IMG/VR virus record: IMGVR_UViG_3300032753_002463
Span: 1 to 64,000 of that record
Source of the DNA: a virus
Length of the DNA stretch: 64,000 nt
Direction: 5' to 3' (one strand)
Shown here: piece after piece, positions 2,635 through 14,063 of the stretch
How positions within the stretch are numbered: position 1 is the stretch's first letter
Layout: every line of letters starts with the position of its first letter
Position numbers and translations under genes: made by a program
Notes under the pieces: generated by a model
The model's input: the letters and a program-made list of their open reading frames with translations, nothing else
What the model was told of the DNA's origin: nothing
Database searches by the model: none

Positions 2635-3177
2635 TTAATTATGAGATAATTTTGTATGGAGTATAGATTTTGAATTTGCACCGGTTTGGGTGTTCCATCT
2701 TCCTTTTGACCAAATACTTATAGTATTTTTAGTAAAATTCATATATTCCTCTGTTCCAATTTCAATATTTTCCAAAAATTCGTCATAGATCTTCGTAACT
2801 TTAGGATTTTTCTCCAAATAATCATCCAAAGCTTTCTCGAGTATATCTGATATTTTAGTTAATTCATCAATAGTAATGCTAATTTTTTCATTTTCTCTTG
2901 ACTTAAAAGGAGCCTCATCGATCAAAAAGGAATCCATATCCTCGGGTGTTATTTCCTCTATTGAAAGAACCACATAAGATTGTTCGGCATCATTTATAAT
3001 ATCATTCTTGGAAAACTTACCCAACTTTATTATAAATGCCCTTTCATGATCACTTTTATCGCCAGTCTTGAAGAAGTAATCATAGGACTTGTCCATTTTT
3101 TTAACATGGAAGTAATTATTACCAAGTCCTTCCTCTTCGTTCAACATATAGTCTTTGAAATACTTTAAAAATTCCAT
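2635..3177 (-). CDS. hypothetical protein, possible head-packaged accessory protein
   Basis: This 180-residue acidic protein of unknown function begins MEFLKYFKDYMLNEEEGLG, a short amphipathic helix ending in L-N-E. That resembles the capsid-targeting leaders of T4 internal proteins, cut after L/I-x-E. The rest mixes beta strands (HERAFIIKLGKF, SYVVLSIEEI) with a helix-rich middle (ITIDELTKISDILEKALDDYL) and a basic C-terminus containing SIWSKGRWN. There is no membrane segment and no recognised enzyme motif. It stands alone between the terminator at 3222-3249 and the Hc1-like gene. A GGAATATATAA element lies about 14 bases upstream of its start. Confidence 0.6.
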   Translation of the reverse strand: MEFLKYFKDYMLNEEEGLGNNYFHVKKMDKSYDYFFKTGDKSDHERAFIIKLGKFSKNDIINDAEQSYVVLSIEEITPEDMDSFLIDEAPFKSRENEKISITIDELTKISDILEKALDDYLEKNPKVTKIYDEFLENIEIGTEEYMNFTKNTISIWSKGRWNTQTGANSKSILHTKLSHN

Positions 3178-4611: not shown

Positions 4612-5934
4612 TTACAATATTAGATTAAGACGTGTTCCAAATGGGATTTTAACATTTTCGTTTATATAGCCTTGAGTACCTACAATTACCCAAATAACTT
4701 TATCTTTGTACATTGGAATTCCAAATTCTTTTTCTGTGGGAAATGGACCACATCCATCAGTAAAATAAATAATTGGGCCTAATGTTTTTTTACCAAGTAA
4801 GTTTTCTTTAATCCATTTAAATGGAGGGCTAAAATCTGTACCGCCGCCGCCACGGGGGGAATTTAGTAAATGTAAAGTATTTGGAGTTACAACATCAACA
4901 GGCAAATGAAGAGCTGCATCACACCACATGAGATGTATTTGTTTAGGCTTAAAATTTTTGATTATTTCATGTGCTTCGCTGACCATACCAGTTAATTCCT
5001 TCTGACCAATGGATCCCGAAGTATCTCCGATTAATACAAAGCTATCAAATGTTGATTTTGTTGGGGTTCTAGTCCATTGGATATCATCATTTCCGATGAA
5101 TCTACGATGTGGTATATCATATTTATGTTTTTCACCCATAGATATGATAAATCTCCTTAATGCATTTTTCCAATCAATCTGAGGTTGTAATAATTTTAAT
5201 AGCTTTCTCTTAAAGCTCTCTGGCATAGTTCCTGCATTTTTATTAAGGCTGTCCTTCAATGCATCGTCCCAATAATCGCTAAGCTTTTCAGGATCACTTA
5301 GATCACTTTCTACTACTTTCATTTCTCCCTCCTCATCACCATCTTGTGGTTCTCCACCCTCTGTCTGTGGTGGGGGAGGTGGTGGATCCTCAACTTCCCC
5401 GATTCTCCATGTACAATTTCCACCCTTGCCCGCTACATAATCGGGAGGTAGATCAATATTGTTTTGAAGTAGGTATTGATATATCATTTCCGCTGTCCAT
5501 CCTTCATACTTTTTTTCTAAAAGAGCCTCTGTTGGCATTACCCCACAACTATCAGGAAGATCTGAGATTAATTGATTTAATGCATAATCGGCAGCAGCAT
5601 TCCAATAATCTGGATTTGCTTGTCTTCTCAAAAAATGTTTGAGTATACAGTGCATTACTTCATGACAAATAACCCATTTAATCTCATCATCTGATTTTTC
5701 CAAAACAAAATCGGGGTCATAAAATAAATGCTTACCATCAGTAGCCATAGTCTTATACTTAAGACCAAGTTTCTCCTCTACCTTTAAGTGCATAATTAAG
5801 TTACCAAAAAAAGGTTGCTTATTTCCAAGCTGGACCTTACATTTCATCATCTTTCTACCAGCCCGAGCTGATACCGAATTCCATTCCTCTTCTTGGAGCT
5901 GCTGTTTTGTTTTGACCGGAGCGGTTTGACTCAT
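4612..5934 (-). CDS. VWA-domain protein with an HExxH metallopeptidase-like domain, MoxR partner
   Basis: This 440-residue protein has two parts. The N-terminal half carries HEVMH (residues 91-95) followed by ILKHFLRR and NAAADYALNQLI. That is the layout of the putative metallopeptidase family (DUF2201 type) that precedes VWA domains. The C-terminal half is a VWA-like domain with the metal-ion-dependent adhesion site DTSGS at residues 304-308, and later a TDG segment. A proline- and acid-rich linker joins the halves (PPPPPPQ around residue 187, then EGGEPQDGDEEGE). It pairs with the downstream MoxR ATPase, a known two-protein arrangement. Whether the HExxH site cuts a substrate is not shown by sequence. 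A 152-base gap upstream should hold its promoter. Confidence 0.85.
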   Translation of the reverse strand: MSQTAPVKTKQQLQEEEWNSVSARAGRKMMKCKVQLGNKQPFFGNLIMHLKVEEKLGLKYKTMATDGKHLFYDPDFVLEKSDDEIKWVICHEVMHCILKHFLRRQANPDYWNAAADYALNQLISDLPDSCGVMPTEALLEKKYEGWTAEMIYQYLLQNNIDLPPDYVAGKGGNCTWRIGEVEDPPPPPPQTEGGEPQDGDEEGEMKVVESDLSDPEKLSDYWDDALKDSLNKNAGTMPESFKRKLLKLLQPQIDWKNALRRFIISMGEKHKYDIPHRRFIGNDDIQWTRTPTKSTFDSFVLIGDTSGSIGQKELTGMVSEAHEIIKNFKPKQIHLMWCDAALHLPVDVVTPNTLHLLNSPRGGGGTDFSPPFKWIKENLLGKKTLGPIIYFTDGCGPFPTEKEFGIPMYKDKVIWVIVGTQGYINENVKIPFGTRLNLIL

Positions 5935-6086: not shown

Positions 6087-7970
6087 TTAAGAGGATTTAA
6101 TAAATTCCTGCCAGAGGTATACAATAGATTTTGGAGCATTTTTCTTAAAATTAACAAAATCCTGGCGAACTATCATATCCTGAATTTCTAAGGAATTATT
6201 CCATTGAGGAGTGGAATATATGTGAAATTCCGGAGTTAGTTTACCCTTTTTAATCAAGCTCTTTTTTTGTAATACATAATTTTCATAAGTGTCCTTTTGT
6301 GTTGTTAGACCAATGACATTATATTTTTCAGACAATGCTTCTATACATGTAGCTAGTAAATTATTAGGAACATAGATAACATCCTCTATTAGATCCTTAA
6401 ATTCAGTAGCAATTGAAACCATACTTTTCTTAAGAATATCTATATCTAGTGGATATTTTTTAGATCCCTCTTGTGGTTCTACAACAGCTAATACTACCGG
6501 TAAATGATTTTCTTGTTTAGTCCTTTGTATGATTTTTAAGTCCCCATTATTGAATGGCTGAAAATTTCCAATAACTAAATTAACCATCTTCTTCTCATCA
6601 TGGTGAGTTGTTTTGTCATCAGGATCTTTATTATCTAATGGAGTTTCAATACTATCCTTAATTTGATCCATTAAATTAGTAGAATCTACATCCTCACCAG
6701 CATTTTCAACATCCTCACTTTCCTCAATAATGATATTTTTGCTCTCTTTCCTAAATTCACCAAATGTTGGTATTCCACTTTCTGCTACACCATCTAAATT
6801 ATTTAGATAATCTGCTATTTCTCGAACCAATATATTAAATTGTTGAATAGACCCGCTAGTAAAAAATCCACCTGCTTTTTTCTTTAGTTTTCTAAATGCA
6901 GATAGTATTAGTTTAAATAAGGATTCATAGCTTTCTTCTTCCTGTATTAATGCCCTAGTTTTCTCGGAAGAAATATTATCTATATTTGCTTGGAATCCTT
7001 CTCCCCTTAAATAAGCGGGCTCCTCAAAATCAACACCCCTGTAATTTTCACCATACTCATCGATAAATTTTTCAAAAACATCACAGATAAAGGAAATATA
7101 TCTATCCTCTATTTCATCTCCCACATATTGAAAATGCTCTAGCCCTTTTTCTAATATAAAATTCATGATCTCTAATACAGTGATACCGTAAATATCATTG
7201 GGAAAAAATCCTTCACTTTTAATCTCATTTTCCTTTGCAATCTCGGCAAATACAGGATCTACTATTTTAGCACTCACAGTTTCTCCTTGTCCATCCAAGG
7301 AACCAAATTTAAATACTATCCCTTCTATAGGCTTATCTAAATCATCATTTAACGTTGTTTTTTTAAGCTCTGGATTAAGTATTGATATAATGTATTTGGC
7401 AAAGGAATTCGTGCCGTATTGATAGCTTAAAGTGTCAAATGGCACACTTAAAAATTCTTGTATCTTAACTTTTTGTTCATCGTTCATTTTTCCTTGGAAA
7501 ATGATTGGAGGGTTTTCGACACCTAATATTTCTGCCCAGTGATCTAGCTCTTTTTTATCTACAATAGTTCTTTCAATTTCTCCAAAATCATCCTTAACAA
7601 GAATATAGGTAAGGACAAGATTATTTTTTGGTAATCTATCATAAGTAATAGAAATTGGATTGCTGTTTATAAAATATTCCATTCCAAATCTCCATCCTAA
7701 TGGCAATTCATCCTTTATTTCGTCGGCTAAAGTATTTACATACCTAATTGGAGGTTCGTAATATCTCATTAATGTTCTATCGATCTTTGTTATGGGATTT
7801 AATTGATCCCTTTTATAAAAAGATATCTCACCGTCATTAATATTCCTTTCAAATGAAAATGATGATCCATTTAACATTTCTGTTATTACTACAGTCTTCT
7901 TGAAAAGATTTTCCAAAAATTCTTTCCCTTGCTTCCTATAAATGTCCGTTAGATATTTTATCCCTGCCAT
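6087..7970 (-). CDS. RNA ligase-like / NMN adenylyltransferase-like fusion with degenerate active sites
   Basis: This 627-residue fusion has an N-terminal segment (about 1-245) arranged like T4 RNA ligase 2. Motif I reads VVITEMLNGSSFSF, a motif III-like segment reads WRFGMEYF, motif IV reads IEGIVFKFG, and a weak motif V reads AKIVDP. In active ligases motif I is E-K-x-x-G, where Lys carries the AMP. Here residue 32 is Met (codon ATG). The middle is helical with an acidic linker (about 415-460). The C-terminal part (about 463-627) begins VNLVIGNFQPFNNGD, the nucleotidyltransferase P-loop-like motif G-x-F-x-P-x-H-x-G-H. Here both His are replaced, by Asn474 and Asp477. If these alignments hold, both halves may bind nucleotides without the usual chemistry. 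A structural or sensing role is possible. Domain calls are by eye. Confidence 0.6.
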   Translation of the reverse strand: MAGIKYLTDIYRKQGKEFLENLFKKTVVITEMLNGSSFSFERNINDGEISFYKRDQLNPITKIDRTLMRYYEPPIRYVNTLADEIKDELPLGWRFGMEYFINSNPISITYDRLPKNNLVLTYILVKDDFGEIERTIVDKKELDHWAEILGVENPPIIFQGKMNDEQKVKIQEFLSVPFDTLSYQYGTNSFAKYIISILNPELKKTTLNDDLDKPIEGIVFKFGSLDGQGETVSAKIVDPVFAEIAKENEIKSEGFFPNDIYGITVLEIMNFILEKGLEHFQYVGDEIEDRYISFICDVFEKFIDEYGENYRGVDFEEPAYLRGEGFQANIDNISSEKTRALIQEEESYESLFKLILSAFRKLKKKAGGFFTSGSIQQFNILVREIADYLNNLDGVAESGIPTFGEFRKESKNIIIEESEDVENAGEDVDSTNLMDQIKDSIETPLDNKDPDDKTTHHDEKKMVNLVIGNFQPFNNGDLKIIQRTKQENHLPVVLAVVEPQEGSKKYPLDIDILKKSMVSIATEFKDLIEDVIYVPNNLLATCIEALSEKYNVIGLTTQKDTYENYVLQKKSLIKKGKLTPEFHIYSTPQWNNSLEIQDMIVRQDFVNFKKNAPKSIVYLWQEFIKSS

Positions 7971-11135: not shown

Positions 11136-11371
11136 TATATTAATTCGTTACCTTTTTTCTTTCTTTTTTTAAAGCTAGTTTCTGTTACCTTCTTAGAATT
11201 ATCCTTTTTCTTAACCATTATTGGTTCAGTTTTAAATAAACCATCAAGGGAAAGGCTTTCAAGGGATGATTCAAATTCGAATTTGATATCTCCCTTTAAC
11301 ATTCCTAATTTCTTATCCAATTTATCATCACCGCCATTTAGTGATAATCCTTCTACTTTATACTTTGCCAT
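11135..11371 (-). CDS. hypothetical small protein
   Basis: This 78-residue protein of unknown function has a serine- and leucine-rich centre (FEFESSLESLSLDGLFK) and a very basic C-terminus (KKVTETSFKKRKKKGNELI). It overlaps the 249-residue gene upstream by 19 bases and the UvsY-like gene by one base, so it sits inside a tightly packed operon. Placement suggests a recombination or replication accessory role, but no motif supports that. Confidence 0.55.
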   Translation of the reverse strand: MAKYKVEGLSLNGGDDKLDKKLGMLKGDIKFEFESSLESLSLDGLFKTEPIMVKKKDNSKKVTETSFKKRKKKGNELI

Positions 11372-12102
11372 TGATCAATAGTTTCTTTTTGGTTTTCCCA
11401 AGTTTCTAATCTAAATTCCGGATGAGATTCTTGGAATTCCTTCACCCATTTACAATAGTGTTCAAATACTTCATTTGTTGTATATCCATTCATATCTGCT
11501 GAATGCAGTGGAATATTATGTATCTCTTTATAGCTTTTCCAGAATTCCCACATAAAACTTGGTAAGGTTATCCAGTATGTTATTTCATCCTTACCATATA
11601 TTGTTATACTAACAATGGTTTTTTCTAATGCTAATATAGGATTCCATCCCCATTCTGACAAATGTGCTATTAATTTTCCCCTTTCCTCGCCAAATTTACT
11701 TTTGTCTGGAAATTTAGATGGAAATCTATGTACAAGATCATCCAAAAAAGAGTCCGGCATGGTTGCAGAATAAGGATAAATTAATTCTACCGATATTCCT
11801 TTCCTATCATCCTCCTTTATAAAAATAAATTCTCTATTACTAAAGATGGTTTGATTTTCGTGTCTTATATCAGAATATCCTTTAGTAGAAGTTAACACAG
11901 CTTCCTTCGTTACCTTCATTTGTTCTTCTGCAGAATATGGATAGGGAGAGCCTTTAAATCCATATTTAACCAAATATACTTCTTTTTTATAATCCTCTAC
12001 TTTTATTCTATTATACATGGATCGTATAAATTTAAAACCAGTACTATCCTTCCATGATTGGAAAGATGATTCTGGGGGTTCTTTGAAAAAATTCTCTGCC
12101 AT
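11353..12102 (-). CDS. hypothetical protein (249 aa)
   Basis: This 249-residue soluble protein of unknown function is rich in aromatic residues. It begins MAENFFKEPPESSFQSW and has paired segments such as EVYLVKYGFKGSPYPYS and TIVSITIYGKDEITYW that look like beta strands. Helices rich in Trp and Tyr (SFMWEFWKSYKEI) follow. No catalytic motif is visible. It is the first gene of the run leading into the UvsY-like gene, downstream of the GIY-YIG endonuclease gene. The GAATATAAAG sequence shortly before the ATG resembles the elements seen at other starts. Confidence 0.6.
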   Translation of the reverse strand: MAENFFKEPPESSFQSWKDSTGFKFIRSMYNRIKVEDYKKEVYLVKYGFKGSPYPYSAEEQMKVTKEAVLTSTKGYSDIRHENQTIFSNREFIFIKEDDRKGISVELIYPYSATMPDSFLDDLVHRFPSKFPDKSKFGEERGKLIAHLSEWGWNPILALEKTIVSITIYGKDEITYWITLPSFMWEFWKSYKEIHNIPLHSADMNGYTTNEVFEHYCKWVKEFQESHPEFRLETWENQKETIDQWQSIK

Positions 12103-12165: not shown

Positions 12166-13011
12166 TCATAATCTATTTCGATTTTTAATCCTTGATTCAA
12201 TTCTTTTCTTTTCCCGAGCTTCTAATCTTCTATTAGTTTCTTCCAATCCATATTTCAGTATCATTTTCTCCTTTAAACTAATTCCCTTTCTTATATCTCC
12301 TCTCTCTTTATATCTTTTAGTAGCATTTTTTGAAATTTTTTCATTTCGCTCATCCCATTTTTTGTTTCCCCCTTCCTCCCCATACTTTTCAATTAATCCT
12401 TCTTTTGGCCTACTATCTCTTTTTTCAAAAAGATCTTTTTTCATCTTATCTGCTTCTTCCTTACCATATTTTTCTATCCACTTTTTGTAGAATGAAGTAC
12501 CATACATTGGATTTTTTTCTCCAGCATCTCTACCCTTCCTCTGTTCAGAAAATAATTCTTTTGTTTCTTCTGTATGTGGATGTTTTTTCCCAGTATTGCT
12601 TTTACTAATTTTTTTTCTTACCTCTTCTGTATTAGCTATCCTTAGTGCTTTAATATATTCCTCTCTTTTGATTGGATCCTTCCATCTTTCCTTTACTGCT
12701 CTCCCAATATTTTTTTTATGCTCTTCTGTTAATATTGTTCCTTGTGCTATTCCTTCACCCCCTAATCTGATATTATATCCTATTTTTGGATCAGTAGAAT
12801 TATAGAAAGCAATCCAATAAATTTCTTTCTCACAGAGGATTTCATTATTTTCTGCACGATCGATAACATCCTTCTTAAAATTTACTATACCATATTTCTT
12901 TATTGCTCTTTTAATAAGTTTGCCGGAGCCAAAATATTTAGGATTTGAACTTGTATCCTTTCCTATATAAATTTTATTATTTACAAGATTAGTTATTTTA
13001 TATATTTCCAT
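12166..13011 (-). CDS. GIY-YIG homing endonuclease with NUMOD3-type repeats
   Basis: This free-standing GIY-YIG nuclease of about 281 residues starts MEIYKITNLVNNKIYIGKD. The two halves of the signature appear as IYKITN and IYIGK, followed by an Arg-containing helix and a conserved Glu region. The C-terminal half is basic and carries NUMOD3-like DNA-binding repeats (GKKHPHTEETKELFSEQRKG) and further KYG-x-E-x-G-NKK-type repeats. Such genes cut phage DNA and spread themselves, like T4 seg genes. The frame extends eight codons upstream, but the internal ATG at 13009-13011 fits the family N-terminus. It starts two bases past the primase stop. It separates primase from the uvs genes, as expected for an insertion. 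Confidence 0.88.
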   Translation of the reverse strand: MEIYKITNLVNNKIYIGKDTSSNPKYFGSGKLIKRAIKKYGIVNFKKDVIDRAENNEILCEKEIYWIAFYNSTDPKIGYNIRLGGEGIAQGTILTEEHKKNIGRAVKERWKDPIKREEYIKALRIANTEEVRKKISKSNTGKKHPHTEETKELFSEQRKGRDAGEKNPMYGTSFYKKWIEKYGKEEADKMKKDLFEKRDSRPKEGLIEKYGEEGGNKKWDERNEKISKNATKRYKERGDIRKGISLKEKMILKYGLEETNRRLEAREKKRIESRIKNRNRL

Positions 13012-13013
13012 AA

Positions 13014-14063
13014 CTATATATATATCATATCCCAAACGGAAGAGCTCCAGTAGTTTTCTAAATTTTTAATCTTCATATTATTCTCATGGGCATAAATTAC
13101 TACATCATTCAAATCCCATTTATCCCTTTCTGGAAATCCATTTTCTTGTAAGAACTTCTTCCACAAAAAAACACTTTCCCCATCTGTTAATAGTTTTTGA
13201 GATTTTTCCCTTCCTGAACTATCACTATCCAAGAAATATCTTTTATCTATTACATCAAAAGGAAATGTATTATTGATAGAACACAGTCCTACTGAATTTC
13301 TATAAAGGAAACTATCGAAGGGACCTTCAAAAATAGTAATTGGATCTTCCAAATTTAAAGTGGAAAATCCAAAGACGCAAGAAACTGGATCAAGTTCACT
13401 AGCCTTTTCTATGATGGCTGCATCTCTTTCCTTAAATAAGTTTTTATAAATACCGCTAAGCCTATATGTATAGTACTTGTTAACGGCACCTTTGTTCATA
13501 TTTTTAATTTGGAGGCCAAGTACATGTTCTCCATTAGCAGTCAAATTTAATAAAAACATTGACTTCTTTCTCGGTTCCCATAAAAACCTTTCATCGGGTT
13601 CCTGATACCTCTTTCTTAGATATTCCTTAGCTCCGAGGGGGAGTTCAATAAGACCCAATTTTTTCTTTAAATAATCCCGTGTTGGGATTATTTCTTTATA
13701 CACCTCTAATAAAAATACATCTATACTCCCAGCATGTTTTTTAGCATTACGTTTTGTTTTACCAATTTCTATAATTTCTGATATTTGGTCTGGACTAATT
13801 ATATTACCCAGTTCAAAATCTTTCAAAAAACTATACAAATCTCGAAACACACTACACCCACCATTATAACACTTAAAAGAGAGGCTCTCTGTATACAGAT
13901 TGCCTCTCTTTTTTCGTGCTTCAGCTGAGTCGCCACAATACGGACAGGAGAAATTTAAACGTCCGCTACTTACGTAGATTTTTTGTTTTTGAGTATTACC
14001 TGGAAAGGCATTCTCTAAAACCTTCTTGACCATTCCTTTCAAATTCTCTATTGAGAAACTCAT
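13014..14063 (-). CDS. 61: DNA primase, T4 gp61-like
   Basis: This 349-residue primase is close to T4 gp61 in length (342). An N-terminal zinc-binding domain has Cys40-Pro-Tyr-Cys43 and Cys65...Cys70, in the phrase CPYCGDSAEARKKRGNLY typical of this family. The C-terminal part contains a TOPRIM-like core: ITIFEGPFDSF with the conserved Glu, then FLDSDSSGREKS with the Asp pair. It should make RNA primers for the lagging strand together with a DnaB-type helicase, which is not encoded in this window. It lies 26 bases from the gp32-like gene. The GIY-YIG gene follows immediately. Metal and zinc ligands appear complete. Confidence 0.88.
   Translation of the reverse strand: MSFSIENLKGMVKKVLENAFPGNTQKQKIYVSSGRLNFSCPYCGDSAEARKKRGNLYTESLSFKCYNGGCSVFRDLYSFLKDFELGNIISPDQISEIIEIGKTKRNAKKHAGSIDVFLLEVYKEIIPTRDYLKKKLGLIELPLGAKEYLRKRYQEPDERFLWEPRKKSMFLLNLTANGEHVLGLQIKNMNKGAVNKYYTYRLSGIYKNLFKERDAAIIEKASELDPVSCVFGFSTLNLEDPITIFEGPFDSFLYRNSVGLCSINNTFPFDVIDKRYFLDSDSSGREKSQKLLTDGESVFLWKKFLQENGFPERDKWDLNDVVIYAHENNMKIKNLENYWSSSVWDMIYI

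Follow-up and report, generated by a model that had tools for sequence, protein, structure and literature searches.

A phage RNA ligase–NMNAT fusion protein that lacks key catalytic residues in both domains

The fusion gene and its two domains

The window, a stretch of 64,000 nucleotides, is part of a 96,932-base IMG/VR virus fragment from a large tailed phage encoding T4-like tail genes together with SSB, primase, RuvC-like and helicase genes. On its minus strand lies a gene whose ATG comes a few bases after the stop codon of its same-strand upstream neighbour; a scan for promoters and terminators gave signal no better than shuffled sequence. The original prediction described the product as a fusion of a ligase-like and an NMN-adenylyltransferase (NMNAT)-like domain, both lacking key catalytic residues, and the motif table, profile searches and Foldseek bore this out. 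An AlphaFold model of the protein had a mean pLDDT of 72, with both domains mostly at 75–90. The features are as follows.

6087..7970, minus strand: ligase–NMNAT fusion ORF, 627 aa, ATG start; ligase-like domain, helical domain, linker and NMNAT-like domain
7236..7970, minus strand: Rnl2-type nucleotidyltransferase (ligase) domain, residues 1–245 (PF09414, Rnl2 profile match, Foldseek)
7866..7880, minus strand: motif I EMLNG, residues 31–35, nucleophile Lys replaced by Met32 (codons GAA ATG TTA AAT GGA)
7668..7697, minus strand: motif III GWRFGMEYFI, residues 92–101, Glu98 retained (equivalent to Rnl2 E99)
7302..7337, minus strand: motif IV DKPIEGIVFKFG, residues 212–223, Glu216 retained (global alignment)
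7251..7277, minus strand: motif V VSAKIVDPV, residues 232–240, Lys235 retained
6756..7235, minus strand: helical domain, residues 246–405, conserved in the family and placed where Rnl2 has its C-terminal helical domain
6591..6755, minus strand: acidic low-confidence linker, residues 406–460 (pLDDT <50 for residues 392–458)
6090..6590, minus strand: degenerate HIGH-superfamily nucleotidyltransferase (NMNAT/PPAT fold), residues 461–627 (Foldseek and profile matches)
6540..6551, minus strand: NNGD replacing HxGH, residues 474–477 (motif table)

PF09414 (RNA_ligase) matched residues 26–236 with E = 1.2e-5, slightly below the curated cut-off in hmmscan and above it in the genome search. By profile–profile comparison, the family aligned with T4 Rnl2 and phage ligases at E = 2e-9, a value obtained after the phage ligases had joined the Rnl2 side; the lone T4 Rnl2 sequence gave no match to the family profile in hhalign. 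This alignment, which the original prediction had proposed as a check, pairs window E31-M32 with Rnl2 E34-K35, placing M32 opposite K35, and window E98 with Rnl2 E99. In the global alignment, Rnl2 AEGYVL lies opposite window IEGIVF in the motif IV stretch. T4 Rnl2 (2hvr) was also the top Foldseek match of the N-domain model (E = 4e-8), with modest TM-scores for the ligase part that reflect the uncertain placement of the domains (pTM 0.43). The helical domain is visible in the secondary structure of the model, with Foldseek alignments to full-length Rnl2 spanning 340–391 columns at high r.m.s.d., and is probably equivalent to the C-terminal helical domain of Rnl2.

The window protein shares with T4 Rnl2 (PF09414; PDB 1s68, 2hvr) the fold and, in order, motifs I (minus its Lys), III, IV and V; it differs in having Met32 at the Lys35 equivalent and in its additional C-terminal NMNAT-like domain. 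Fold, homology and motifs III, IV and V are those of an active Rnl2-type ligase, whereas motif I reads EMLNG for EKxxG, as predicted: E31, G35, E98, E216 and K235 are present in the pocket, and the Lys that forms the enzyme–AMP bond is absent.

The C-domain model matched NMNAT, NadD and PPAT structures (8aih, E = 2e-6; 4yp7, TMt 0.70), and profile searches matched PPAT (5e-6) and MjNMNAT (6e-5). The fold and the GxFxPF motif of strand 1 are shared with NadM/archaeal NMNAT and PPAT/NadD (PF01467), and the GRFQPFHxGH found in three relatives that keep the ligase Lys (L003–L005) matches the NadM reading. The HIGH-superfamily Rossmann-like fold of NMN adenylyltransferases is present, but [HT]xGH and ISxTxxR are not: the HxGH site reads NNGD, again as predicted, the ISxTxxR segment has degraded to WNNSLEIQDM, and the G.DR segment of relatives is missing. 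Because T, S or N at the first position of the HIGH motif need not kill the enzyme (PPAT has T), the second His of HxGH is the clearer loss. The window protein is not filed within the active Rnl2 or NMNAT families.

The fusion itself is ruled out as a novelty, since the T4-like cyanophage S-PM2 and many family relatives have the two-domain layout. The S-PM2 protein S-PM2d138 (591 aa, T4-GC 71) combines DUF6267 and CTP_transf_like in the same domain order, and its fold matches the window protein across both domains (BFVD, E = 5e-10). By profile, only the C-domain aligned with the family (E = 2e-6); the N-domains were alike in fold. PF19782 (DUF6267) matches the S-PM2 protein at 1.6e-111 and gave no match to the window protein at E ≤ 1. 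Unlike the window protein, S-PM2d138 has a motif I Lys (KWDG), TTGH and SASKVR.

Selection and the order of loss

Relatives were drawn from viral contigs and phage genomes, and the motif table spans 28 of them; the bacterial and archaeal genome contigs that were scanned yielded none. The closest comparison is contig L001, whose gene is 89% identical to the window gene in amino acids and 83.5% in nucleotides. It shares both EMLNG and NNGD, the substitutions that were to be sought in relatives. Between the two, dN/dS was 0.044 over the whole gene and 0.037 within the ligase domain, the latter similar to pairs retaining the motif I Lys (0.01–0.06). The C-domain diverges faster (dN 0.080 versus 0.027); its dS is saturated, so only dN is meaningful there. 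Sequencing error is ruled out by the presence of both changes in this independent contig, with dN/dS of about 0.04, and a neutral pseudogene by the same contig, the frame open in both contigs and the whole-gene dN/dS.

Twelve near relatives that keep the Lys define 114 invariant columns, 109 of which are retained in both the window and L001 (68/71 in the ligase domain, 27/27 in the helical domain). The five changed columns are K32M, L162M, R221K, H477D and G558Q. The probability that five random changes among 114 columns include both catalytic residues is 0.0016, a descriptive figure, as those residues had been picked before the computation.

The relatives also order the losses. Motif I Lys and HxGH are both present in L002–L005 and L007–L008 (with Ala at the motif I Gly position in L004 and L005), and L006 reads SNGH at the HxGH site. 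The nearest clade, L016–L024, has EKLNG, Lys included, yet NNGH, and the ISxTxxR arginine is gone. Simultaneous loss of both sites is thereby ruled out; as the present-day sequences indicate, the Lys and the second His of the window/L001 lineage were lost after an NNGH-type change in the C-domain. The claim that two active sites were lost in one conserved protein therefore holds for the losses and the purifying selection, but not for their coincidence. L026–L032 encode the ligase without an attached NMNAT domain; in those of their contigs that reach far enough (L027–L030 and L032), a separate NMNAT gene comes directly after it.

Genes around the fusion gene are conserved among relatives. The downstream conserved neighbour, window gene 2635–3177, has a homologue fused to the ligase–NMNAT protein in L003 (L003:6001–8601), which suggests that its product is a functional partner of that protein. 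The DUF2201 metallopeptidase/VWA gene (window 4612–5934) corresponds to two adjacent ORFs in L006, L016, L017 and L019–L022. Compared with L001, window genes 11353–12102 and 13014–14063 have dS of 0.13 and 0.51, far below most measurable neighbours, whose dS is mostly about 1.3 or higher. This points to the two phage lineages having recombined recently. An extra ORF beside the helicase gene in L001 (L001:2513–3286) is 40% identical to window gene 12166–13035 and is a possible mobile gene copy.

Repeated loss of the motif I lysine

Relatives that keep the active-site residues had been named in the original prediction as pointing to a local mutation. Most relatives, at 31–51% identity, do retain the motif I Lys, the exceptions being the L011/L025 lineage and a clade from huge phages. 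A local mutation is nevertheless the wrong explanation, because the loss of the Lys has become fixed, is conserved and has occurred in at least three lineages.

The Lys is replaced by Asn in LR756500 (462 kb; L011/L025), for which a scan seeded with L011 returned its own copy only, and by Asp or Asn in four phage genomes of 635–735 kb (L012–L015). A profile of these four found at least 93 relatives among viral contigs (IMG/VR), of which 80 were kept and 59 were distinct; the motif I position is Asp in 58 of the 59 and Glu in one, in a search that was seeded with Lys-less sequences and does not measure the frequency of Lys-keeping forms. Members of this clade (L012–L015, L056–L135) are stand-alone ligase folds with a conserved motif I E-D-[IV]-Q-G-S (EDxQGS) replacing EKxxG. 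The motif IV Glu is mostly present, and the motif IV Gly has become Lys. The clade profile matches the window ligase domain at E = 2e-80 and Rnl2 at E = 1e-7, and a model of the clade matches tRNA/RNA ligases in the PDB. Like the window protein, these proteins have ligase and helical domains and have lost the Lys; unlike it, they have Asp there, have lost the motif V Lys as well, and have no NMNAT domain.

A tree placed at least three Lys-state changes on well-supported branches, with four Lys-bearing phage ligases as an outgroup whose branch is long and with several deep forks weakly supported. Judged from these sequences, the losses in the window lineage and in the huge-phage family are separate events. 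In the huge-phage clade the losses extend to the Lys of motif V and the Gly of motif IV, so what is conserved there is probably something other than nucleotide binding.

At 58 of 84 huge-phage loci the downstream neighbour is a protein of about 420 aa with no Pfam match (L012:9340–10596 and homologues). It carries DISNSQP and VHDSI, by eye reminiscent of motifs A and C of family-A polymerases.

Possible functions of the fusion protein

Catalysis need not rest on the fusion protein, because Lys-bearing ligases exist in related genomes. A second RNA ligase, its motif I reading EKVHG, is encoded in the sister genome G001; separate ligases also occur in G003, G004, LR756500, LR745206 and LR756501, those inspected having the motif I Lys. 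In the 97-kb record that contains the window, itself a fragment, the fusion protein was the only ligase seen.

We put at about even the chance that the protein is a doubly inactivated pseudoenzyme, derived from a working RNA ligase–NMNAT fusion, that binds ATP/AMP or an RNA end non-covalently. The ligase domain would still close on its ligand, either ATP/AMP or an RNA end that is nicked or 5'-adenylated; without its Lys it could not become adenylated and would act as a non-covalent sensor, holder or regulatory subunit. The C-domain, its pocket decayed earlier, would be a structural or interaction module. PDB titles describe K-to-M ligases with non-covalent ATP or AMP (5cou, 'K170M+ATP'; 6vte, 'K170M with AMP and Mn'), and with 8uch the set covers K-to-M and K-to-A ligases crystallized with ATP or AMP. 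Because such ligases crystallize with these nucleotides, and K-to-A forms can keep step 3, non-covalent binding of ATP/AMP or an RNA end is the most likely activity. At least three separate losses of the Lys also mean that the role of the protein is probably to bind nucleotides or RNA ends, not to act on them catalytically. The repurposed nucleotide binder of the original prediction is thus the most economical reading for a protein under selection, with the ligand as its conjectural part.

The main rival, unlikely but serious, is that both folds are kept purely as docking surfaces for proteins or nucleic acids, the nucleotide pockets being irrelevant. The huge-phage relatives fit this, being highly conserved despite having lost the motif I and V Lys and the motif IV Gly and lacking the NMNAT domain, as do the full retention of invariant columns in the helical domain (27/27) and the position of the gene beside conserved genes, one of them fused to it in L003. 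But the window lineage keeps E31, G35, E98, E216 and K235, which is more than a scaffold needs, although these residues could serve stability alone.

A distinctly less probable but live rival is an RNA ligase confined to step 3, which would not adenylate itself and would seal AppRNA pre-activated, for example, by another phage ligase. Ligases with the motif I Lys changed to Ala retain step 3 fully (MthRnl K97A) or partially (T4 Rnl2 K35A), whereas T4 Rnl1 K99A is dead for it (PMC3514331). The intact motifs III, IV and V of the window protein and the Lys-bearing ligases of related genomes agree with such an enzyme; the recurrent huge-phage clade, with motif V also lost, does not. We know of no source of free AppRNA in the window phage, which further counts against it.

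That catalysis persists through substitute residues is very improbable. Six lysines (K24, K221, K460, K569, K570 and K625) are unique to the window and L001 against 12 relatives, but K221, in motif IV, is Lys in other Lys-keeping relatives too, the remainder are either distant from motif I along the chain or positioned where its strand begins, and HxGH and ISxTxxR are both gone. Recent death and neutral decay, which the missing catalytic residues and the faster C-domain might suggest, are scarcely credible given the low dN/dS, the open frames and the retained columns.

The proposed NAD sensing or decoy role against host defence found no support, as nothing pointed either way; with the C-domain pocket lost in the window, binding of NAD or NMN has nothing in its favour. 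No NadV turned up in G000, G001 or G007, which are fragments; the remaining five records that were searched do have it. Solo NLig-Ia domains of phages are ligase-derived non-catalytic proteins that have been proposed as NAD+ sensors or shields; they are a different domain, and their ligand residues are conserved (PMC9503650). Literature searches turned up no paper that names phage RNA ligase pseudoenzymes, Lys-less RNA ligases, DUF6267 or cytitidyltransferase, and none on the repeated loss of the defining Lys or a non-catalytic role of the fold.

More tentatively, ligase-derived pseudoenzymes with repeated Lys loss may form a family that is widespread in large and huge phages and that, during infection, binds RNA ends or adenylated nucleotides in a sensing or regulatory role; the window protein would be a young convergent member. 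If so, the window protein, with its AMP pocket otherwise intact, is a directly testable member. Its relatives, with both sites intact, the C-domain decayed, both sites lost or the C-domain absent, form a ready series for testing what a fold does after catalysis. The repeated and conserved loss of the defining Lys, while the window lineage keeps the rest of the pocket, suggests that the ligase fold has a non-catalytic role in large phages.
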